From assembly GCF_026151205.1 (NCBI RefSeq), contig NC_087074.1, forward strand, positions 16,813,962 to 16,877,961: a stretch of DNA of 64,000 bases, read 5' to 3'. Source of the DNA: Bolinopsis microptera (Eukaryota > Ctenophora > Tentaculata > Lobata > Bolinopsidae). Below are positions 21,568 to 45,300 of this stretch, one piece after another. Both the position numbers and the translations under genes were made by a program. Position 1 is the first letter of the stretch, and each line of letters starts with the position of its first letter. The notes beneath the pieces were generated by a model, which had not been told where the DNA came from, ran no database searches, and worked only from the letters and a program-made list of their open reading frames with translations.

Positions 21568-24500
21568 GGTAAGGCGTGGCCCCTGGGAGTGGCCTCAGTG
21601 GGTTGAGAGGTCGAAACTTGATTTTTATGATGGTTTGGGACAGGTTGAACCCATTTTAAAACTAAAACATGTCCCACCTACCCCGGAACATAAAAGCACT
21701 ACAGGGGTAAAGATTTAAAGTCTGGATTTTAGCTGGATTTCAGTAATTTTGGGATGGGCGTGGCCCCTGGGAGTGGCCTGAGTGGGTTGAGAGGTCGAAA
21801 CTTGATTTTTATGATGGTTTGGGACAGGCAGAACCCATTTTTAAACTAAAACATGTCCGACCTACCCTGAAACATAAAAGCACTACAGGGGTAAAGATTA
21901 TAAAGTCTGGATTTTAGCTGGATTTCGGTAATTTTGGGATGGGCGTGGCCCCTGGGAGTGGCCTGAGTGGGTTGAGAGGTCGAAACTTGATTTTTATGAT
22001 GGTTTGGGACAGGTAGAACCCATTTTAAAACTAAAACATGTCCCACCTACCCCGGAACATAAAAGCACTACAGGGGTAAAGATTTTAAAGTCTGGATTTT
22101 AGCTGGATTTCGGTCATTTTGGGATGGGCGTGGCCCCTGGGAGTGGCCTGAGTGGGTTGAGAGGTCGAAACTTGATTTTTATGATGATTTGGGACAGGTA
22201 GAACCCATTTTAAAACTAAAACATGTCCCACCTACCCCGGAACATAAAAGCACTACAGGGGTAAAGATTTTAAAGTCTGGATTTTAGCTGGATTTCGTAA
22301 TTTTGGGATGGGCGTGGCCCCTGGGAGTGGCCTGAGTGGGTTGAGAGGTCGAAACTTGATTTTTATGATGGTTTGGGACAGGTAGAACCCATTTTTAAAC
22401 TAAAACATGTCCCACCTAACCCGGAACATAAAAGCACTACAGGGGAAAGATTTTAAAGTCTGGATTTTAGCTGGATTTCAGGTAATTTTGGGATGGGCGT
22501 GGCCCCTGGGAGTGGCCTGAGTGGGTTGAGAGGTCGAAACTTGATTTTTATGATGGTTTGGGACAGGCAGAACCCATTTTAAAACTAAAACATGTCCCAC
22601 CTACCCCGGAACATAAAAGCACTACAGGGGTAAAGATTTTAAAGTCTGGATTTTAGCTGGATTTCGGTCATTTTGGGATGGGCGTGGCCCCTGGGAGTGG
22701 CCTGAGTGGGTTGAGAGGTCGAAACTTGATTTTTATGATGGTTTGGGACAGGTAGAACCCATTTTTAAACTAAAACATGTCCCACCTACCCCGGAACATA
22801 AAAGCACTACAGGGGTAAAGATTTTAAAGTCTGGATTTTAGCTGGATTTCGGTCATTTTGGGATGGGCGTGGCCCCTGGGAGTGGCCCGAGTGGGTTGAG
22901 AGGTCGAAACTTGATTTTTATGATGGTTTGGGACAGGTAGAACCCATTTTTAAACTAAAACATGTCCCACCTACCCCGGAACATAAAAGCACTACAGGGG
23001 TAAAGATTTTAAAGTCTGGATTTTAGCTGGATTTCGGTCATTTTGGGATGGGCGTGGCCCCTGGGAGTGGCCTGAGTGGGTTGAGAGGTCGAAACTTGAT
23101 TTTTATGATGGTTTGGGACAGGCAGAACCCATTTTAAAACTAAAACATGTCCCACCTACCCCGGAACATAAAAGCACTACAGGGGTAAAGATTTTAAAGT
23201 CTGGATTTTAGCTGGATTTCGGTCATTTTGGGATGGGCGTGGCCCCTGGGAGTGGCCTGAGTGGGTTGAGAGGTCGAAACTTGATTTTTATGATGGTTTG
23301 GGACAGGCAGAACCCATTTTAAACTAAAACATGTCCCACCTACCCCGGAACATAAAAGCACTACAGGGGTAAAGATTTTAAAGTCTGGATTTTAGCTGGA
23401 TTTCGGTCATTTTGGGATGGGCGTGGCCCCTGGGAGTGGCCCTGAGTGGGTTGAGAGGTCGAAACTTGATTTTTATGATGGTTTGGGACAGGCAGAACCC
23501 ATTTTTAAACTAAAACATGTCCCACCTACCCCGGAACATAAAAGCACTACAGGGGTAAAGATTTTAAAGTCTGGATTTTAGCTGGATTTCGGTCATTTTG
23601 GGATGGGCGTGGCCCCTGGGAGTGGCCCTGAGTGGGTTGAGAGGTCGAAACTTGATTTTTATGATGGTTTGGGACAGGTAGAACCCATTTTTAAACTAAA
23701 ACATGTCCCACCTACCCCGGAACATAAAAGCACTACAGGGGTAAAGATTTTAAAGTCTGGATTTTAGCTGGATTTCGGTCATTTTGGGATGGGCGTGGCC
23801 CCTGGGAGTGGCCCGAGTGGGTTGAGAGGTCGAAACTTGATTTTTATGATGGTTTGGGACAGGCAGAACCCATTTTTAAACTAAAACATGTCCCACCTAC
23901 CCCGGAACATAAAAGCACTACAGGGGTAAAGATTTTAAAGTCTGGATTTTAGCTGGATTTCGGTCATTTTGGGATGGGCGTGGCCCCTGGGAGTGGCCCG
24001 AGTGGGTTGAGAGGTCGAAACTTGATTTTTATGATGGTTTGGGACAGGTAGAACCCATTTTTAAACTAAAACATGTCCCACCTACCCCGGAACATAAAAG
24101 CACTACAGGGGTAAAGATTTTAAAGTCTGGATTTAGCTGGATTTCGGTCATTTTGGGATGGGCGTGGCCCCTGGGAGTGGCCCGAGTGGGTTGAGAGGTC
24201 GAAACTTGATTTTTATGATGGTTTGGGACAGGCTGAACCCATTTTTAAACTAAAACATGTCCCACCTACCCCGGAACATAAAAGCACTACAGGGGTAAAG
24301 ATTTTAAAGTCTGGATTTTAGCTGGATTTCGGTCATTTTGGGATGGGCGTGGCCCCTGGGAGTGGCCCGAGTGGGTTGAGAGGTCGAAACTTGATTTTTA
24401 TGATGGTTTGGGACAGGCAGAACCCATTTTTAAACTAAAACATGTCCCACCTACCCCGGAACATAAAAGCACTACAGGGGTAAAGATTTTAAAGTCTGGA

Positions 24501-27500
24501 TTTTAGCTGGATTTCGGTCATTTTGGGATGGGCGTGGCCCCTGGGAGTGGCCTGAGTGGGTTGAGAGGTCGAAACTTGATTTTTATGATGGTTTGGGACA
24601 GGTAGAACCCATTTTAAAACTAAAACATGTCCCACCTACCCCGGAACATAAAAGCACTACAGGGGTAAAGATTTTAAAGTCTGGATTTTAGCTGGATTTC
24701 GGTCATTTTGGGATGGGCGTGGCCCCTGGGAGTGGCCCGAGTGGGTTGAGAGGTCGAAACTTGATTTTTATGATGGTTTGGGACAGGCAGAACCCATTTT
24801 TAAACTAAAACATGTCCCACCTACCCCGGAACATAAAAGCACTACAGGGGTAAAGATTTTAAAGTCTGGATTTTAGCTGGATTTCGGTCATTTTGGGATG
24901 GGCGTGGCCCCTGGGAGTGGCCCGAGTGGGTTGAGAGGTCGAAACTTGATTTTTATGATGGTTTGGGACAGGCAGAACCCATTTTTAAACTAAAACATGT
25001 CCCACCTACCCCGGAACATAAAAGCACTACAGGGGTAAAGATTTTAAAGTCTGGATTTTAGCTGGATTTCGGTCATTTTGGGATGGGCGTGGCCCCTGGG
25101 AGTGGCCCGAGTGGGTTGAGAGGTCGAAACTTGATTTTTATGATGGTTTGGGACAGGCAGAACCCATTTTTAAACTAAAACATGTCCCACCTACCCCGGA
25201 ACATAAAAGCACTACAGGGGTAAAGATTTTAAAGTCTGGATTTTAGCTGGATTTCGGTCATTTTGGGATGGGCGTGGCCCCTGGGAGTGGCCCGAGTGGG
25301 TTGAGAGGTCGAAACTTGATTTTTATGATGGTTTGGGACAGGCAGAACCCATTTTTAAACTAAAACATGTCCCACCTACCCCGGAACATAAAAGCACTAC
25401 AGGGGTAAAGATTTTAAAGTCTGGATTTTAGCTGGATTTCGGTCATTTTGGGATGGGCGTGGCCCCTGGGAGTGGCCCGAGTGGGTTGAGAGGTCGAAAC
25501 TTGATTTTTATGATGGTTTGGGACAGGCAGAACCCATTTTTAAACTAAAACATGTCCCACCTACCCCGGAACATAAAAGCACTACAGGGGTAAAGATTTT
25601 AAAGTCTGGATTTTAGCTGGATTTCGGTCATTTTGGGATGGGCGTGGCCCCTGGGAGTGGCCCGAGTGGGTTGAGAGGTCGAAACTTGATTTTTATGATG
25701 GTTTGGGACAGGCAGAACCCATTTTTAAACTAAAACATGTCCCACCTACCCCGGAACATAAAAGCACTACAGGGGTAAAGATTTTAAAGTCTGGATTTTA
25801 GCTGGATTTCGGTCATTTTGGGATGGGCGTGGCCCCTGGGAGTGGCCCGAGTGGGTTGAGAGGTCGAAACTTGATTTTTATGATGGTTTGGGACAGGCAG
25901 AACCCATTTTTAAACTAAAACATGTCCCACCTACCCCGGAACATAAAAGCACTACAGGGGTAAAGATTTTAAAGTCTGGATTTTAGCTGGATTTCGGTCA
26001 TTTTGGGATGGGCGTGGCCCCTGGGAGTGGCCCGAGTGGGTTGAGAGGTCGAAACTTGATTTTTATGATGGTTTGGGACAGGCAGAACCCATTTTTAAAC
26101 TAAAACATGTCCCACCTACCCCGGAACATAAAAGCACTACAGGGGTAAAGATTTTAAAGTCTGGATTTAGCTGGATTTCGGTCATTTTGGGATGGGCGTG
26201 GCCCCTGGGAGTGGCCCGAGTGGGTTGAGAGGTCGAAACTTGATTTTTATGATGGTTTGGGACAGGCAGAACCCATTTTTAAACTAAAACATGTCCCACC
26301 TACCCCGGAACATAAAAGCACTACAGGGGTAAAGATTTTAAAGTCTGGATTTTAGCTGGATTTCGGTCATTTTGGGATGGGCGTGGCCCCTGGGAGTGGC
26401 CCGAGTGGGTTGAGAGGTCGAAACTTGATTTTTATGATGGTTTGGGACAGGCAGAACCCATTTTTAAACTAAAACATGTCCCACCTACCCCGGAACATAA
26501 AAGCACTACAGGGGTAAAGATTTTAAAGTCTGGATTTTAGCTGGATTTCGGTAATTTTGGGATGGGCGTGGCCCCTGGGAGTGGCCCGAGTGGGTTGAGA
26601 GGTCGAAACTTGATTTTTATGATGGTTTGGGACAGGCAGAACCCATTTTTAAACTAAAACATGTCCCACCTACCCCGGAACATAAAAGCACTACAGGGGT
26701 AAAGATTTTAAAGTCTGGATTTTAGCTGGATTTCGGTCATTTTGGGATGGGCGTGGCCCCTGGGAGTGGCCCGAGTGGGTTGAGAGGTCGAAACTTGATT
26801 TTTATGATGGTTTGGGACAGGCAGAACCCATTTTTAAACTAAAACATGTCCCACCTACCCCGGAACATAAAAGCACTACAGGGGTAAAGATTTTAAAGTC
26901 TGGATTTTAGCTGGATTTCGGTCATTTTGGGATGGGCGTGGCCCCTGGGAGTGGCCCTGAGTGGGTTGAGAGGTCGAAACTTGATTTTTATGATGGTTTG
27001 GGACAGGCAGAACCCATTTTAAAACTAAAACATGTCCCACCTACCCCGGAACATAAAAGCACTACAGGGGTAAAGATTTAAAGTCTGGATTTTAGCTGGA
27101 TTTCAGTAATTTTGGGATGGGCGTGGCCCCTGGGAGCGGCCTGAGTGGGTTGAGAGGTCGAAACTTGATTTTTATGATGGTTTCGGACAGGAACTACCTA
27201 TCTAACCGCTAAAACATGTGCCACCTATCCTGGAACACAAAAGAACTACAGGGGTAAAGATTCTCGATCTGGATTTTACCAGGATTATAGTAATCTTGGG
27301 ATTGGCATGGCCTCTGGGAGTGGCTTGAGTGGTTCAAGAGCTTAAAACTTGGGGTTTGTGATGGTTTGGGATATGTACTACCTATTTAAACACCAAAACA
27401 TGTTTCAAATACTCAGCAACACAAATCCTCTTCAGGGCCCAGGGGTAAAGATTCTCATTCTGGATTTTTAAGGATTTGTCACAGATTTCAAGCTATTTGG
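21568..27500. repeat. 185-bp satellite array, about 32 copies
   Basis: Head-to-tail units of 184-186 bp, each starting near 'gggatgggcgtggcccctgg' and containing 'gaggtcgaaacttgat', 'ggaacataaaagcactacag' and 'agtctggattttagctgg'. Observed unit starts 21751, 21936, 22121 and 22305 give the period. Central copies (about 23.8-26.9 kb) are almost identical and share 'gtggcccgagtggg'. Copies nearer either edge carry 'gtggcctgagtggg'. The first unit and the last two or three (27.1-27.5 kb) are strongly diverged. No frame is open across units. The homogenised core with degraded edges is classic unequal-crossover satellite structure. Confidence 0.97.
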
Positions 27501-30304: not shown

Positions 30305-33300
30305 ATGCGAAGTGTTACCAAAGGAGCGGAGGATGAGATTGTTATCTCCGGGATGTCCGGACGGTTCCCGGAGTCGGAGTCCCTGGATGAACTCTGGAAG
30401 AACCTCATGTCTAGGGAGGACATGATAAAAGTTGACGGTAGTTCTTATCTTAAATATTGTTTCTTCAATTAGTTTAATTAATTTCATCCTTTAACCTTAT
30501 CTTAGTTAAGTTTATTGTGACATGTGTAGAAATGATTTGTTGCTTCCGTGTACTTTGCCGTAAACAAGTTTAATTGAACTCAGTATTTAATAAAACATGT
30601 CCCTATACAGACAGACGCTGGCCAGTGGGTGTATTTGAAGTGGACACATTTGGAAAACTGAAGGACATCAGCAGGTTTGATGCCCCATTCTTCAACTTCA
30701 CCGCAGATCAAGCTAACCAGTGTGCTCCGGATGTCAGGGTGATGCTTGAAGTGGCTTGGGAGACCATTGTGGATGCTGGGTGTGATCCTAAGAGTTTAGA
30801 GAATACTCCTACTGGGGTTTATATCGGTATGTACTGGGGTTTATATCGGTATGTACTGGGGTTTATATCGTTATGTACTGGGGTTTATATCGGTATGTAC
30901 TGGGGTTTATATCGGTATGTACTGAGGTTTATATTGGTATGTACTGGGGTTTATATAGGTATGTACTAAGCAGTTACATCACTGCTTATAATGCGATAAC
31001 ATTATTTTCACCACGGTGAAAATAGTTTTATCCACCGAGGCGGAGCCGAGTTGGATAAAACGAGTTATATCCCGAGCCTGCGAGGGATATAACTCATTGT
31101 TATCCCAGTTATTGCACCCCTATCTAATGCATTATATTAGCGTAAACAAGAGTGAGATAACAACTTTTACATTATGGACAGTTACACACTGATCATGGGA
31201 GAATGGGGTTTACATCGGTATGTACTGAGGTTTATATCGGTATGTACTGGAGTTTATATCGGTATGTGCTGAGGTTTATATCAGTATGTACTGTGGTTTA
31301 TATCGGTATGTGCTGGGGTTTATATCAGTATGTACTGTGGTTTATATCAGTATGTACTTGGGTTTATATTGGTATGTGCTGGGGTTTATATCGGTATGTA
31401 CTGAGGTTTATATCGGTATGTGCTGGGGTTTATATCAGTATGTACTGTGGTTTATATCAGTATGTACTTGGGTTTATATTGGTATGTGCTGGGGTTTATA
31501 TCGGTATGTACTGGGGTTTATATCAGCATGTACTTGGGTTTATATTGGTATGTGCTGGGGTTTATATCGGTATGTACTGGGGTTTATATCGGTATGTACT
31601 GGGGTTTATATCGGTATGTACTGGGGTTTATATCGGTATGTACTGGGGTTTATATCGGTATGTACTGAGGTTTATATTGGTATGTACTGGGGTTTATATA
31701 GGTATGTACTAAGCAGTTACATCACTGCTTATAATGCGATAACATTATTTTCACCACGGTGAAAATAGTTTTATCCACCGAGGCGGAGCCGAGTTGGATA
31801 AAACGAGTTATATCCCGAGCCTGCGAGGGATATAACTCATTGTTATCCCAGTTATTGCACCCCTATCTAATGCATTATATTAGCGTAAACAAGAGTGAGA
31901 TAACAACTTTTACATTATGGACAGTTACACACTGATCATGGGAGAATGGGGTTTACATCGGTATGTACTGAGGTTTATATCGGTATGTACTGGGGTTTAT
32001 ATTGGTATGTGCTGGGGTTTATATCGGTATGTGCTGGGGTTTATATCGGTATGTACTGAGGTTTATATCGGTATGTGCTGGGGTTTATATCAGTATGTAC
32101 TGTGGTTTATATCAGTATGTACTTGGGTTTATATTGGTATGTGCTGGGGTTTATATCGGTATGTACTGGGGTTTATATCGGTATGTGCTGGGGTTTATAT
32201 CAGTATGTACTGTGGTTTATATCAGTATGTACTTGGGTTTATATTGGTATGTGCTGGGGTTTATATCGGTATGTACTGGGGTTTATATCGGTATGTACTT
32301 GGGTTTATATTGGTATGTGCTGGGGTTTATATCGGTATGTACTGGGGTTTATATCGGTATGTACTGGGGTTTATATCGGTATGTACTGAGGTTTATATCG
32401 GTATGTACTGGGGTTTATATCGGTATGTGCTGGGGTTTATATCGGTTTATAGGTTTATACTCAGACTTTGCTTGATTGGCAAGATAATTGTTTTCTCGTC
32501 TAGTTATCTAAAATCTCTCACGACCGCGTTCCCAACTTAGCCTCAACAAGTTTACGTAATGTTTATCCCAACAGATAAAGTTACAATTTGAGGATTGGAT
32601 CATGTTTAATATTATATCCTGGACAGGTAATTGCATAGTTGAAGCGGGAGAAGCGCTTACAAACAATGTTAACACCATCACAGCTACTGGACTACTCAAC
32701 AGCATGCATACCTCCCTCCCCAACAAGGTCAAAATATTATTAGGACTTTTAGTAATGCTATTAGTAATGTTATTGGTAATGTTATTACTTTTTGTGAGAA
32801 TGCGCGATATGGCAAGACTGCAGGAAAATATATAAAGTTAATTAAAATGTATTGATTATTTATTGGCAGAAAGTAAGCACCTTCACTGGAGCTCCTCCAG
32901 GTTTATGTAGCACCCAGCTAACTAACCACTTATATTGCACAGGTTTCAGAGTATTTTAAGTTCACAGGACCAAGTGAAACACTAACTAACCACTTATATT
33001 GCACAGGTTTCAGAGTATTTTAAGTTCACAGGACCAAGTGAAACACTAACTAACCACTTATATTGCACAGGTTTCAGAGTATTTTAAGTTCACAGGACCA
33101 AGTGAACCACACCACTAACCACTTATATTGCACAGGTTTCAGAGTATTTTAAGTTCACAGGACCAAGTGAAACACACCACTAACCACTTATATTGCACAG
33201 GTTTCAGAGTATTTTAAGTTCACAGGACCAAGTGAAACACACTAACTAACCACTTATATTGCACAGGTTTCAGAGTATTTTAAGTTCACAGGACCAAGTG

Positions 33301-36300
33301 ATTGAAGTGAAACACACCACTAACCACTTATATTGCACAGGTTTCAGAGTATTTTAAGTTCACAGGACCAAGTGAAACACACGACACGGGTTGTTCTGCG
33401 TCTCTCTATTCGCTGGGTAATGTTACTGGACTGAATTATTAAAATTTCAAATAGAATGTTCTAGGTATTTTGCTATTCATTGCTCTTCATATAAGCATAC
33501 AGTAGGGTGCGAGACATTTCAACTGTACAGCATTTTCTGTACGGCATTTTCCAAAAGCACTTGAAATATAGGTACTGGCTTTCCAGTTCATACAGTGTGA
33601 TACTGAAATTGTAAAAAGTAACGATCAGTAACTCTGTGTACAATAAAATACATTATACACATACAATATACATTGTATCTTCAGATACGGCTGTAATGGC
33701 GATGAAAAGGGGCGACATATCAGCAGCACTCATCGGAGGCTGTAACCTCAACCTCAAACCTCAGGTAAACTCAACCTTAATCCTCAGGTTATGTCTTCAA
33801 GATAACCGAGATACTTTTAGTTTTTAGGATCTTACGGGCACCACAGAAAAGAAACTTTATTTTATTTAACTAAAAGCGAAATATGTACTGTATCAGTATA
33901 ACTGTATAATGCAAGTACATGTATAGTGGTGATCTAACCGGCCCCACATCACCAGGCGACTGTAGCCCTGCACCGCATGAACATGGTCTCAGGAGGGAGG
34001 GGATGCCGTGTTTATGATAAGTCTGCTGATGGGTACAGTAGAGCAGAGTGTATCTCTCTCGTTCTTCTTCAGGTACTGTAAATACTGGTACATTCTGGTA
34101 CCTGCTGGTACATACTGGTACATACTGGTACATACTGGTACATACTGGTACATACTGGTACATACTGGTACATACTGGTACATACTGGTACATACTGGTA
34201 TATGTATGCAGCGCGAATGAACAACATTTTTCATAGCAATTGACATCATTTTAAATATCCTGTAAGAGTTATGGCAGGAATTTCATTGAAAAATTCAAGA
34301 TGTCGTGTACCTTAAATTGGGGTTTATTTACACAACAAATTCTTCAGTGGCGAAGTCAAGCAAAACGTATTTATGGCCGGATAGTAAACAGTGTAACGAA
34401 TAACGATGGGTTCAAGGAGGAAGGGATTATATTTCCCGATTCGAGGAGTCAGGTTGGTCCGCAGTTTGTGTAGAAGAAAAATGTGGTTTTCCAAAATGTC
34501 TTCGCTTCACTTTCTTTGGAGATAAAGAATTGCTACCACAACTCTTGCACAAAGTGGGCACAGGAAGATGACATAATCTCTCCTGTCATAGCATCAAACA
34601 TTTCGGCAAATCCTGCTTTTATGAATTGGGGACATTCCCATAATCCCATAATGACAGCAGTAAAATGAATTCTAAGGTATCAAAGTTGACCACATCAATA
34701 TGTGGGTTTATTTAGAAGAAAACGCCTCATAGCCACGATTTCCTAAAAACCCCCTCTTTCTGAAATTCCTTAAGATTCACAATACCATCCCCCAGATCTC
34801 ACTACTAAGAGAAGCGTACAAGGGGACGTGTGTAGCGGAAGAGGATGTGGTGTATGTAGAGGCTCACGGGACAGGGACTCAGGCTGGGGACACCCAGGAG
34901 TGCCTTGCTGTGGACAATTTCTTCTGCAGTAAACGGAACAAGGTGGGTGGCATAGACTGTGCTACAATTATCAGCAATTATCATTACAATTACGAAGAAG
35001 AAACGTGACTGTGGGTTGCAGTCACGTTACTGATCACGTGACTAGTTAAATATCTGTAATGTGTTAAAGCAAATGTGTAACTAGTTAGTTCCCTTTCCGA
35101 TATAATCTCCCAATCTAATCTCCCAGTCCAATCTCCCAATCTAATTACCCAATCTAATCTCCCAATCTCCATCCCTTAGGATAAGCCCCTTCTGATTGGA
35201 TCCATCAAGTCTAACCTGGGGCACGCTGAGCCCGCCTCCGGTGTAGCAAGTCTCTGCAAAGTCCTGATGTCCTATACTAAAGGTGTCATACCACCAAACA
35301 TCCATCTAAACGAGATCAACCCAAAGTTGGAGGCTGTAATCCAGGGCCGACTTAAGATTGTGGTGAGTATTTGAATCGGGTTGCTGTAATGTACACAATG
35401 TATACATGCATAATGTATAAATATAATATACACAATGTATACATGTATAATGTATACATATAATGTATACCATGTATACATGTATAAATGTATTTAGTAA
35501 CAATTACTCTCCGGCTTCTCGTGATCTTTAGGGTATTAGTTGGCTCATTTTCCACTGTTAAAGAGTCAAGATAAATCATAAAATGCAAATAAGCAAGTGC
35601 AAAAGAAGTGGGGTGGGAAACTTTTGGGACCCGTCCAGATATTTATTATTAAATATTTGGATGCTCTTTGTACAATGTTTAACTGTACAAATATACGTTG
35701 GTGTACGGTGATCGAGGTGAAGTATTCAGTCCGCAGTGTAAATCTTGTTAACAACAATTATGTAATCAATTAATCAGTGCAAATTGCAGCTGTTTACCCA
35801 TTATAGATTAGATTTTACTGCTCCAATTTAGAATTTGGGAATAACATGCTTCTAAAAATAGCAAATGATAGACTTGTGAATGAACTTCAAGCATCATTTA
35901 TAAACGAGGTATGCCACTACTAGCGCCTATTTTAATTTGAGTATCTGCCTAATTTGGTGTCAGCTGACTAATGTTCAACATTACCGCATATCGGATAAAA
36001 AATTACCCTAATTGCTGAAATAAGTAAGCACTCTACTGCGGCCCACACTGTATAATTTCCGCATCGAAGCGTAGCAAAATAAATTATTATAATCATATAC
36101 AGTTTATCAGTCAACACAGGCCTTATGATTCCGCGCTCGTCACTCAATAAATTAATATAACGTTGATAAATTATAAAATTTCATAACGATCACTGTTGCT
36201 TTTTTAGAAAGATCAACAGTCAATAATTTGCTGCATTTGCCATGATGAGTATGATAGTCTTCAAACACAAGGAAATATTGTATTATGTACCTTTGTAAAC

Positions 36301-39300: not shown

Positions 39301-42300
39301 AGCTCCACAAGCACGACCTGACTGAAGAATTAAATCTTATTTGTCTGTGAATATTTCGCTACGTAGCTTGTCAGCCTTCAAGTTGATTTTGGTGCCAATC
39401 TGAATAACTGTACAGCCAGTGCTGAAAAATCCTTTAGCAAACTGAAGCTTTTAAAAAAACTCCGAAGCACAGTGGGTAACTAAACGATAGATTAAGCAGT
39501 TTACATTTTAACCATCATCTGACATCTCAATCGAGAACTTAACAGCAAGACAACTTGACAAGAAAGAGCTGGCCAAATTTGATGCTCTTTCCAAACCTAA
39601 GAGAGTTGCTTGGAATATGAACTGTACGCTAATGTAAATATTATGTAGTATTGAAAAATGTAAATTGTTTTTTATTTCCATATTTTTATCTGTTATTGCT
39701 ACCTGTTAGATGTTGGTGTTTTATTTGTATAGGATCATTAAAACTACAATAAGTGACTGCCGATGAAATTGGGATCTAAGTTAAAAGTAAACATTGATAT
39801 CTAAAATTGCCACAAAATCAAAACATTCTCACGCGCGAATTTTGTATACCACGTTTGTATAACAATTGCAATATCGTTATCACTTACCACGTGTTTTTAG
39901 CGCGCGCTGGCTGCTTGCTTTGCACTATATTTAATTTTAGAATTTTACAAATCTTAAAACAGTAGCACGATATTTAACAACTTTTGGACCTTATATACCA
40001 AGTATTTTATTACCAGGGGCGCCATATTTCTAGGGGGCGCCAAATTATGAGGAGGGGCGGCAGAATTTTGGCGCCCCCCTCTCACGGCGCCCCCCCGCAT
40101 AGCGGGGTCTGCGGGGCCTTAAGTTACGCCACTGCTTCTGTTTTAAGTTTTAACCAGTTAATCCCAGACAGAGCCCACACCGCTGGAAGGTAACGGGCTG
40201 GTCTCTCTGAACGCCTTTGGATTCGGGGGTTCCAACGCTCACGTGATCCTACTGCCCAATGAAAATGAGGAGAAGAGCCGAGAAGTGGACGTTTTCTTCG
40301 TAAATGGCAGAACACCCACCGCTGTGTCAAATATGCTGGATCTCGCAACTCGGGAACCCAAGAAAGGTCGGTACTTAAGTTATTTTACAATTTATTCTTG
40401 ACTACCACGGTCATTAATATTATGTTGGTATTATCAATCACATGAGGCCAGTGCCACAGCGTCAGTTCGAATACCAAATTCTGACTTCGTTAGTTTTAGA
40501 TTTTTGTACCGGATTTTTATCCTCTTTATTGCAATAATGATCGATTATTCGATAGCTTTTACTGCTTGCCTTGCAAGCTGCATCAAGTCAATATTTAATT
40601 TTGATCGCCAACGGCTCATTACATCTGCACATATTTATGATATCATTAGAACAATTTATTACAAATTAAAAGTGATGTTGCTTTTAAGAGGTAACGGATA
40701 TTTTTACAATATTTATTAAAAATTAAAAATAGTTCATAACATGTTACTTATAATTCTTCATGAAATGAACTCATACATCAAAACAAAAAATAAGGTTATT
40801 TCAAAAAATCTTTCTATACAAGCTTCCATTCCATTCACGGGATAGCCAGTTACCTGGCAAAGCTCTCTCATGATGCTTCTCCAAGCTCACACAAGTGTCA
40901 GCGAGGAGGAAGATATTCATGCATTTCTGCACGAGGAGCCCATCACAGCTACCAACAATTAATTTAACAAGAATGTTAAAATAAGATTAAAAAGAAGATA
41001 AAAATTTAACAATCGAACCAATTGTCTTTTTTGCGAAGAATGAATGTAGGCTCCTTTAGATGATGACAAAGGTAGAGAAGTTTCGTAAGTTTAGTCGGAG
41101 TTTTCCAGAAATATGATCTTTATCTGCTTTGTAGCGCTATTAGGCACATCTTTTACCATCTTTTCCAAGTCAGGGAATTTTGATTTTGAAAATTTCCTAT
41201 CGAACGGAAACCCCATTGGTTTCTTATCTGGGTATTCGGATTTCCTCTTTCCACAGAAGACCACACTTGCACTCAGATATGTATCTTCGTTAGCTGCATC
41301 CTTCTTCCAGTCAGTCACCAACACGTAGAGATCTGCCCACATGCCTTGAGAAGTTCCCCGGGGGACCAGCAGGTTTCTTGGCCAACCACATCCGCATGGA
41401 GAGTAAGGAGAATCTCCACACTTTCCATCTTGTATATCCTGGACTGTAACGGTAGGAGGGAGAGTAACTGAGGAATCTTCAGATGATCTGGTGATAGTTT
41501 GCTCTGACCCACCGTCTATATCCGCCACGAACCTGTCCATCTCTACAAAATCTCTCCTCCTTGCGTCCAAGTCTTCAGCATATCTTATCGGGGCCAGAAA
41601 CACTCTGAAGACGAGAGAGGCTTTCTCCTCGCGCTTATTTCGAACTGTGAAGTGGTAGTTGAACGGGTAATACTGCAGCATCGACTTGAGCGGGTTCTTT
41701 TCCTTCTTGTCCACGTAAACAGTGATTTTCTTTTCTATCATCTTGGTGTAGAGTCGGTCAACTAGATCTTTGGAATCCAATTCTTTATCGGGCTCACATT
41801 GTGTAGAGACAGTATCAACCTCTATTCCTTCCATCTTAAGATCGTGAATTGTATGGGGTAGAATGTGATCTGACTCTCTGTATTCCTCAAATATGCTGTC
41901 AACGAATCTGGTGGATTCGTGTAGTGTTTTTGAGTCTCATGATTTGATAGTTCTTTTATTCAAATTTCTGATTGTTTCTGAATAGACTCAGTGAAGACAG
42001 ATTCTAATGGAAATAAATAGCTGAATAACGTATCGACATTTCTACGTCATACTCATATTCTGAAATAGTATCAATTCAATTATAACGATCAATATTCACA
42101 TTAAAAATTTGACGACGAAATTTATTTCAAACAAAATATATAACTGTAAAATAGTTATCAACCGTAAATAGTTTTTAACTATTGTATATTGTGTACAACA
42201 CCGCAAAGGCAGTCTCTAACAACAGAGAAAACGAGAAGTACTCAGAAAAGATGATAGATAAACTTCTCATCAACAACGGCTACACTGATAGAGTCTTAGA

Positions 42301-45300
42301 AACCATAAAGAACAAGAGAAAACGTAGAAAGAGAATTAATCAGAACGTACAGAACAAAGACCAAGACGGAGCGATTCTCAAACTACCCTATGTCAACGAA
42401 GCTACTAGTCGCAAATACAGAGATGCTGTCAGACATAGTGGACTCCCCATCAAAATTGTCGAGAAACCTGGACGGAAACTGAAGGATCTCCTTACAGACT
42501 CCAGACCCCTTGACAAGAAATCCTGTACAACATCAAACTGCAGAACATGCGCAGCTTTAACCGATGGAGAATGCACCACAACTAATACCGTCTACCACAT
42601 CACTTGCGAAGTAGACAATTGTACCGAGAACTATGGTGGGGAAACATACAGACCGATCAAGTGCAGGTTCGACGAGCATTACCGTAGTGCGGCAAATCCA
42701 ACAGCAAAATCTTACGAAGATAAGCCACTAGCAAAGCACTACAGGGAAAGTCACCCTCAGCACAAAGGCCCCCCAAAACTTAAACTTCAAATCGTAGATA
42801 GAGGAACATCACTCATCAACAGAAAGATTAAAGAAGCCCGATTTTTAGTTGAAAATAAACCAACACTCAACGATAAAACAGAGTTGAACAATCTAACACA
42901 GTTTTTAGTTGAGTGACGTGTAAATAGTAATATTCTCGTTTAATTCTTTTATCTCTTTTAATCTTTTATCTCCTGTATAACGTCACGCTATTCGTTAATT
43001 TTCAGATGAGCCCTATTTGATAAATGTTGTCAGTTTTATGTTCATATTTGCTCCGATTTCGTTAAAAACTATTTACGGTTGATAACTATTTTACAGTTAT
43101 ATATTTTGTTTGAAATAAATTTCGTCGTCAAATTTTTAATGTGAATATTGATCGTTATAATTGAATTGATACTATTTCAGAATATGAGTATGACGTAGAA
43201 ATGTCGATACGTTATTCAGCTATTTATTTCCATTAGAATCTGTCTTCACTGAGTCTATTCAGAAACAATCAGAAATTTGAATAAAAGAGCTGTCAACGAA
43301 CTTATGCCATCTGAAGAACACGGGATCTCTAGCGGCAGTAATTTGTTCCATCATTGCTCCGAATTTTATGCCGTATCTCTCATCAGGATCGTTGATTAGA
43401 GCGATGACCACGTGCCCAAAGTTGTGAAGGTTTCCGTAGAGCTTCTTGTTCGCCGAGCCCGCGTCAGATTCCACGGTGCATCCTAGCTTGGTCATTGTCA
43501 TCGGAACTTTGTTACCATTCGAATCTTCGAAATAGTTTATTGTTATGGCTTTAGAGATTCTCTCCTTGTGAGTCTCCATGACGCTGGCAAGAATTTGTTG
43601 AGAACCCAATGTCACGCTGGCAGGTATGCTCATGTACGAAGCCCTAAAGGAAAAACCCTCTAATTTTGGGTTGAAACCTTCCGGAATTGGATCATCCCAG
43701 TGAATACCTGGTCCGTAAGGAAGGACAGGAGGGAGACCCACTCCTAGTCTCTGAAAGTCGTACCTGGCCAGCATCTGCTCATGCATGTAGGCAAACAGCT
43801 CCCCCTGCCGCTCAATTTTCAATGGCTTATACCAAGCGTAGTAGAGATGCCAGTGAGCATGGTGCTCAGATAGTCCTAAGTCCTCTCTCCACCAATTAAG
43901 CTTGTGTTCTGGGTCCAAAGTGACAGCCCTTCCGACAAGGGTTTTTTGGGGATCCGGTGGAATGTTTTCTCCAGGTCCGGTTAAGAGTTGGTCTTTGGAG
44001 AAGAAAGCTCGCGGAATAGTTTGGTGAGGAGGAGGAAGAGTCATGTTATTTGTTTCTGGATGCTGGAACAAAGCAATTCTGGAGAGATAGTCCCCATAGG
44101 TACTGCTAGGATGTCGGTTCTTTAGGTCAGAGAGAACATCTATCATTTCGGAGACGCCCAGTCCAGAAAGTTCATTTGCTTTGTCGTAAGCTTCCTTCAT
44201 GTGACTCTCTCTGAAGACAGTGAAGTTAGGAAGGTTGCTCAGCGGCTCCCCAGAATAAACGTCATCATCTTCCAGAAAAACTTTGAGAAGTTTTTTGTTT
44301 AACTCCGGGTCAGCTGTCGTTGGACAACCGCAGTCCGACATCAAACTGCTATGGAGGGAGAGTTTGTTAGTGATGTCGAATAAAGCCAGAAATTACAGTC
44401 GATAAATGGAAATACCTTAGTTTCCAAAAATTTGTGTGCCAAATTTGTGTGGCAAAACTGAGGGATCTTATAATTTGAGTACCAGAAACTTGAGCAAGAA
44501 ATTTGAACTTGTTTGGGCGAAGAAAAAATTTGGGCATTTATATTTTAGAGATAGGAAATTTCTTCTTCTCTAAATTATTGAATCTGTTTGATAAGCTTTC
44601 TAAAACGGCAAGCTGACGTTGGATAATATACGAGACTAATAAGCATTAAAATTTAAAGCAGAATCCTGGTAGAGTAATTGTGTGGGGGGAATGAAAGTAA
44701 ACTTGAAAAGTGAGGTGATGAGTGATGACTGAATAAAATAATTGGAACGGCAAAAAAAAGATACTTGGAGGCTGGAGCTGATGATGTGAACATCACGAAA
44801 CAAACTAACGAAGAAGTGACGGTGGGCAAACATTAGTTTATAACGCTAAATTAAAGAATTAATATTACATAGGAATTGACTAACGCTAAATTAATATTAT
44901 ATAGGAATTATCAATTAACTAACGCTAAATTAATATTATATAGGAATTGAAAATTGCAAAAGTCTGAGCTTTTGAATAATTATCTTACCACGAGACTATA
45001 CGATCAATGATCTTTGGAGAGTTTATTGAGGTCTCGTGTGAATATTATACTCTTACAAATTAAATCATCTTGCTAAACAGGATTTCTGGCGAACTTTAGT
45101 TGTCGAACTTCAGTGTCTGTCGAACTTCATTCGAAAAGCAAGTAAATAAGTAAATAAGATCAAAAGCATAAAAAGGCCTGGAGAGTACAGAATATGGTCG
45201 GCACAAATATTTGTATTTGTTAAAAAAATCAATTCTGCGACTCGAAAACAATAATTTACAGGATTGTTTATCTGAAGAAAGGAAAATACCGTGTCCACGT

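Follow-up and report, generated by a model that had tools for sequence, protein, structure and literature searches.

Minisatellites carrying repeated splice sites in a fatty acid synthase-like gene and in kinesin-family genes of the ctenophore Bolinopsis microptera

The window analyzed here is a stretch of 64,000 nucleotides from Bolinopsis microptera (NC_087074.1, positions 16,813,962 to 16,877,961), and it carries a gene related to fatty acid synthase (FAS). Exons 1-10 of this FAS-like gene were modelled by homology and by comparison of two copies of the gene, and the coordinates of the features discussed below are collected in Table 1. The joined protein of the ketoacyl-synthase region has human fatty acid synthase as its best solved match (E 2.9e-118), and the region matches PF00109, PF02801 and PF16197. 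The gene probably extends past the window: about 2.2 kb beyond the window end, at C3:16880153, there is an acyltransferase exon match that is interrupted by one stop codon. Just downstream of exon 10, a hemocyanin-like gene with Hemocyanin_M and Hemocyanin_C domains occupies window positions 41091-44392 on the minus strand. It apparently sits within a later FAS intron, and a hemocyanin-like gene also adjoins the second FAS-like copy. Upstream of the FAS-like gene, window positions 21573-27371 hold a 185-bp satellite of about 31 copies with a 98% match.

Table 1. Exons, arrays and inserted elements of the FAS-like gene, in window positions (a slash marks the splice site)
Feature	Position	Strand	Basis and remarks
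Exon 2, ketoacyl-synthase region	30611..30826	+	spliced model and two-copy comparison
Donor array, intron 2	30811..32450	+	22-bp unit, 53 units; GT in 51, GTATGT in 50
237-bp dispersed element, first copy, inside array	30965..31201	.	sequence comparison
237-bp dispersed element, second identical copy, 743 bp further	31708..31944	.	sequence comparison
Exon 3 (acceptor AG at 32625-32626)	32627..32727	+	spliced model and two-copy comparison
Acceptor array, intron 3	32920..33382	+	~65-bp unit, 7 acceptors; TRF and frame check
Exon starts in intron 3 array	32943, 33007, 33071, 33136, 33201, 33267, 33341	+	
Exon 4, begins at last acceptor	33341..33416	+	two-copy comparison and frame
Duplication at exon 5 donor, 23 bp x 2	33742..33789	+	CAG/GTAAAC and CAG/GTTATG, 23 bp apart; TRF
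10-bp array starting at exon 6 donor, intron side	34074..34200	+	TRF
13-bp array directly before exon 9 acceptor	35103..35168	+	5 copies here, 22 in second gene copy

Intron 2 holds a tandem array whose units are spaced at strictly 22 bp, save across two insertions. The consensus unit is ACTGGGGTTTATATCGGTATGT, found exactly in 13 of the 53 units, and the first unit comprises the last 16 bp of exon 2 and its donor, which begins at 30827. An initial annotation of this locus had proposed about 50 amplified copies of a donor and its exon end within one intron, with the real exon-2 end and donor as the first unit and an acceptor at 32626; the unit counts and exon boundaries in Table 1 bear this out. 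The array is not due to chance, given the TRF scores of 804 and 825 for two of its three segments and the presence of a 34-unit version of it in the second gene copy. The array had also been said to fill the intron. Its units make up 1166 of 1800 bases, and units and inserts together account, by arithmetic, for about 90%, so that the intron is indeed mostly array, but two 237-bp inserts break its continuity. Both inserts are part of a duplicated, identical 379-bp block and are akin to dispersed copies elsewhere in the genome (at least 52 matches, with 40 of 113 candidates scored).

Within the array, AG/GT stands at the site in only two of the 53 units, and 30 read CG/GTATGT. Letters off the consensus number 12 of 522 at the hexamer positions and 92 of 1392 elsewhere in the units, and distinct variant types number five over the six hexamer positions and 13 over the other 16, which is alike per position. 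Since the units copy one another and the variant types per position are similar, we draw nothing from these counts about selection on the donor hexamer.

The repeated donors had been described as equal and the unit as free of stops in any register, and both descriptions apply in part. Predicted U1 pairing is near-equal across the array, with 22 of 50 GT copies equal to the first donor, 26 weaker and two stronger. The consensus unit has no stop in any register, but 12 of the 53 units have variants that, when the unit is tiled on itself, introduce a stop in at least one register. The expectation that every third donor (n divisible by 3) keeps the frame did not survive examination of the sequence that each choice would add. 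By arithmetic the frame is kept in 17 of the 51 GT donors, yet it is open through exon 3 from only three of them (n = 0, 3 and 6). From each of the other 14 in-frame donors, and from all 34 that shift the frame, translation would reach a stop in the added sequence or in exon 3, and open donors are few largely because the inserted 237-bp element carries stops.

The acceptor array of intron 3 is the mirror image of this donor array. Its unit consists of a CTAAC-rich stretch, in which we take CTAAC to be a branch-site-like motif, followed by an acceptor and about 40 bp of exon 4. Only the last acceptor leads into an open frame, both in the window (one of seven) and in the second gene copy (one of four). 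Shorter repeats are found at the donors of exons 5 and 6 and ahead of the exon 9 acceptor (Table 1); the exon 5 duplication, seen by TRF, goes unflagged in the 16-mer recurrence test used below.

The second FAS-like copy lies 83.5 kb upstream of the window copy. The two are contained in colinear blocks that are 88-99% identical and alternate with unmatched sequence. These blocks extend over about 56 kb on one contig and 66 kb on the other, and a 100-N gap at C3:16783612 separates the two duplicated regions. Judged from this arrangement, the pair probably represents two overlapping haplotype contigs joined by mistake, the second copy being the other haplotype. A real duplication is not the favoured reading; it is kept in consideration by the last 8 kb before the gap, which have no match of at least 350 bp in the 104 kb compared on the other side. 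Haplotype overlap of this kind may also account for equally scoring kinesin matches that occur in pairs on two other contigs, with spacings of about 38 and 88 kb.

Array length differs between the two copies. The window copy has 53 donor units and the second copy 34, the acceptors of intron 3 number seven and four, respectively, and the 13-bp array before exon 9 differs as well (Table 1). In the second copy, four of 32 GT donors leave the frame open, and AG/GT stands at the site in one of the 34 units. Assembly error could in principle have made the array or its length, as assembled repeat lengths can be wrong and the locus is close to a 100-N gap and a probable false duplication. Such an origin is nevertheless extremely improbable, given that two diverged copies both hold the donor array with a different unit order and private variants, and that the same design is found in unrelated genes. 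Across 452 codons compared, the copies show 15 synonymous and two nonsynonymous differences (about 0.048 and 0.002 per site), and eight of the introns, intron 2 being left out, differ by 1.2 to 3.8%. The FAS-like protein is thus kept by selection, and correct splicing must accordingly be frequent.

Kinesin-family genes of the same genome served as a control. The sample was built from the best 28 of 109 kinesin-family exon matches, of which two (L018 and L022) were dropped as near-duplicates; two single-exon genes were used as queries only, and 16 adjoining stretches were added by exon positions, giving 23 stretches and 114,639 bases. Spliced comparison placed 57 introns in 21 of the 23 stretches, although many of these junctions rest on one comparison each and a few may be wrong. 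GT follows 20 of the 57 inferred acceptors and may be commoner there than usual.

In eight of the 57 kinesin introns, the 16-mer recurrence test finds the intron's own splice site again within the intron. Five of these are donor cases, with 51, 24, 7, 5 and 1 further copies, and three are acceptor cases, with 36, 28 and 1; two of the eight are single duplications. The units repeat coding sequence and splice site together, as in a 35-bp unit with TCTTCCAAGG/GTAAGT and a 49-bp unit with TTTTCTCAG/GTTTTCG. A ninth intron has a 13-bp array that begins at the donor and contains no exon sequence. The local frame is open from none of 89 extra donors and none of 64 extra acceptors, in a count with slightly looser matching than the eight-intron test and restricted to copies with GT or AG. 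Repeated own splice sites are therefore a class that recurs in this genome, in which about 8 to 42 bp of coding sequence from the exon are repeated along with the site. We reject the idea that the FAS-like gene is specially targeted, as the kinesin introns have like arrays. Another FAS-like gene, on C2, has three TRF arrays in its stretch, none of them within or between the matched ketoacyl-synthase exons. Among glutamate-receptor ligand-binding matches (PF10613), 22 of 32 are in open frames that run without interruption for 431-989 residues, with several clustered on C3 and C12. Compared with solved structures, one glutamate-receptor gene resembled many receptors and pointed to no clear lineage among the best 60 of 483 and of 380 matches, and a search of the genome for COX1 found none.

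The recurrence of the arrays bears on what they might do. It had been suggested that the donor array acts as an intrinsic brake or noise source on expression of the FAS-like gene. Many donors and acceptors would then be used, most products would be frameshifted and destroyed, output would fall with array length, and alleles of different length would set the dose of the FAS-like enzyme. Such a brake fits the observations that nearly all alternative sites give stops or frameshifts, that the repeated copies are near-equal in predicted strength and that unit number differs between the two gene copies. However, the same design in unrelated kinesin genes argues against a regulator special to the FAS-like gene, and the presence of like architecture at the acceptor of the next intron further weakens that proposal. 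Conserved coding also implies that enough correct product is made, although a partial brake is still compatible with this. We regard the brake as unlikely, and a brake or noise role for the arrays is at present unsupported.

A second possibility is that the units serve as both donor and acceptor through dual-specific AGGT sites, and that splicing removes the array one unit at a time. This is described for polyubiquitin (PMC10809524), and several kinesin acceptors, counted above, are followed by GT. The rarity of AG/GT in the window array, where CG/GTATGT is the frequent form, speaks against stepwise removal, which we consider highly improbable for this intron.

The arrays might instead mark new introns, born when exon sequence was tandemly duplicated and then spliced out. 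The positions of FAS introns 2 to 5 all correspond to the interior of a single unbroken matched exon in the C2 FAS-like gene, and a potato gene is reported to have gained an intron by tandem duplication across an intron-exon border (PMC4974935). Against this stands the acceptor of intron 2, which lies outside the array, so that donor and acceptor do not come from one duplicated segment; moreover, with two FAS genes, gain and loss look alike. Among kinesins, introns with arrays have a counterpart at the same position in another kinesin as often as the other introns do (4 of 8 versus 18 of 48), and the array-bearing ones are therefore probably not newly born. We judge intron birth to be very unlikely as the source of these arrays.

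Whether the arrays prefer exon edges was addressed in two ways. Compared with random interior positions of the same introns, which lie largely inside the same arrays, splice sites show no excess of recurrence (donors, 5 observed and 5.65 expected; acceptors, 3 observed and 5.2 expected). In a placement test, an array was allowed to fall anywhere in its intron or to overlap the exon by at most one unit. With the FAS-like gene included (66 introns), 10 of 24 arrays overlap an exon edge where 3.4 are expected. Without it, the count is 7 of 17 (2.5-3.6 expected, P 0.004-0.028), and for arrays of at least 100 bp it is 6 of 10 (1.4-1.8 expected, P 0.0002-0.002). These figures come from a small sample and a simple model. 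The placement test speaks for a preference and the cruder recurrence test shows no excess, and the preference is thus suggestive only.

Predicted splice-site strength offers little guidance to site choice. In kinesin g12, 44 of 51 copies pair more strongly with U1 than the needed donor, and in g6 this applies to five of six; in g21, g23 and g4, nearly all copies equal the needed donor. Only in the second FAS copy is the needed donor the strongest, with all 31 others weaker. As predicted U1 pairing fails to single out the right donor, position must decide. By frame and protein model, the needed site is the first transcribed in donor arrays and the last in acceptor arrays. A rule by which the first transcribed site wins would suit the donor arrays but not the acceptor arrays, where six earlier acceptors would be ignored. 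A rule that refers to the exon body is the only one to account for both kinds of array, and this points towards exon definition. Two-site model systems often show a preference for the downstream donor when both are equal, which would oppose an outermost-donor rule.

The reading we find most convincing is that the arrays are tolerated minisatellites, and that the site beside the exon body is picked by position; we hold this to be likely. According to this model, intron 2 would have begun as an ordinary intron of about 200 bases and grown through a minisatellite founded on a unit that spanned the boundary between exon 2 and intron 2. The spliceosome would nearly always use the copy adjoining the exon body, as the protein suggests, choosing the first site where donors are repeated and the last where acceptors are. 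The extra units would depart with the intron, would be near neutral and could drift in number. The differing unit numbers of the two copies, the conserved coding sequence and the frame-breaking effect of the other sites support this reading, as do the recurrence in kinesins, the U1 predictions and the finding that array introns are not unusually private in position.

The sizes of the array-bearing introns are also relevant to the tolerated-minisatellite reading. When the array span is subtracted, 182 bases remain of FAS intron 2 and 215 of intron 3, and the kinesin cases leave 105, 233, 262, 99, 224, 626, 951 and 1258 bases; the median kinesin intron without a splice-site array has 199. The remainder is thus of ordinary intron size in seven of the ten array introns (99-262 bases), which favours the reading, and the three long remainders (626, 951 and 1258 bases) count against it. 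The excess of exon-edge overlaps over the placement model may mean that simple random founding is not the whole story.

Several known systems share features with these arrays. In a human interferon gene of the IFI6 type, a minisatellite at an exon border is described as supplying donors, two downstream units of which are used to give three mRNA species. Like that minisatellite, the window array starts at the real exon end and has a donor-like sequence in each unit; the 53 units, the acceptor array in the next intron and the recurrence across genes set the present case apart, in which the extra units are putative donors. The polyubiquitin gene UBC is likewise reported to be a tandem array with a dual-specific splice site in each repeat and to be spliced stochastically (PMC10809524). 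The UBC units described there are 228 bases long, in frame and coding, whereas the FAS-like units are 22 bp long, most choices among them break the frame and most lack AGGT. The potato RdRp gene resembles the present case in that a duplicated segment contains exon and intron sequence and a splice signal, but there a single duplication is reported to have made a new intron (PMC4974935), in contrast to long arrays in introns that look pre-existing. CeRep25B minisatellites of C. elegans also lie near spliced regions, are intronic, and are linked to splicing choice, the regions concerned being alternatively spliced (PMC4039745). CeRep25B is presented in the same source as a dispersed repeat family (PMC4039745); the FAS and kinesin arrays, by comparison, are copies of the host gene's own splice site. 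In the open literature, most subscription papers being outside its scope, we found no report of such a class of splice-site arrays and nothing closer than the IFI6, UBC and potato cases.

A broader proposition, which we put forward tentatively and with slightly less than even confidence, is that splice-site-anchored minisatellites occur genome-wide and arise or persist preferentially at exon edges, and that the spliceosome picks among tens of equal sites purely by position. If so, donor and acceptor arrays would constitute a natural experiment for distinguishing exon definition from first-come choice and from intron definition, with allele-to-allele copy number as its built-in dose. Engineered minigenes are the usual means of studying how a cell picks one of several identical splice sites that lie close together. 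Here, the introns of a living animal pose that question tens of times, for donors and for acceptors alike. Consistent use of the outermost site would provide natural evidence for recognition across the exon; otherwise, these introns would be a copy-number-tuned source of unproductive RNA. The arrays also show how introns can grow from their own splice sites, in a genome that repeats such sites at either intron end and in unrelated genes, yet makes conserved proteins.
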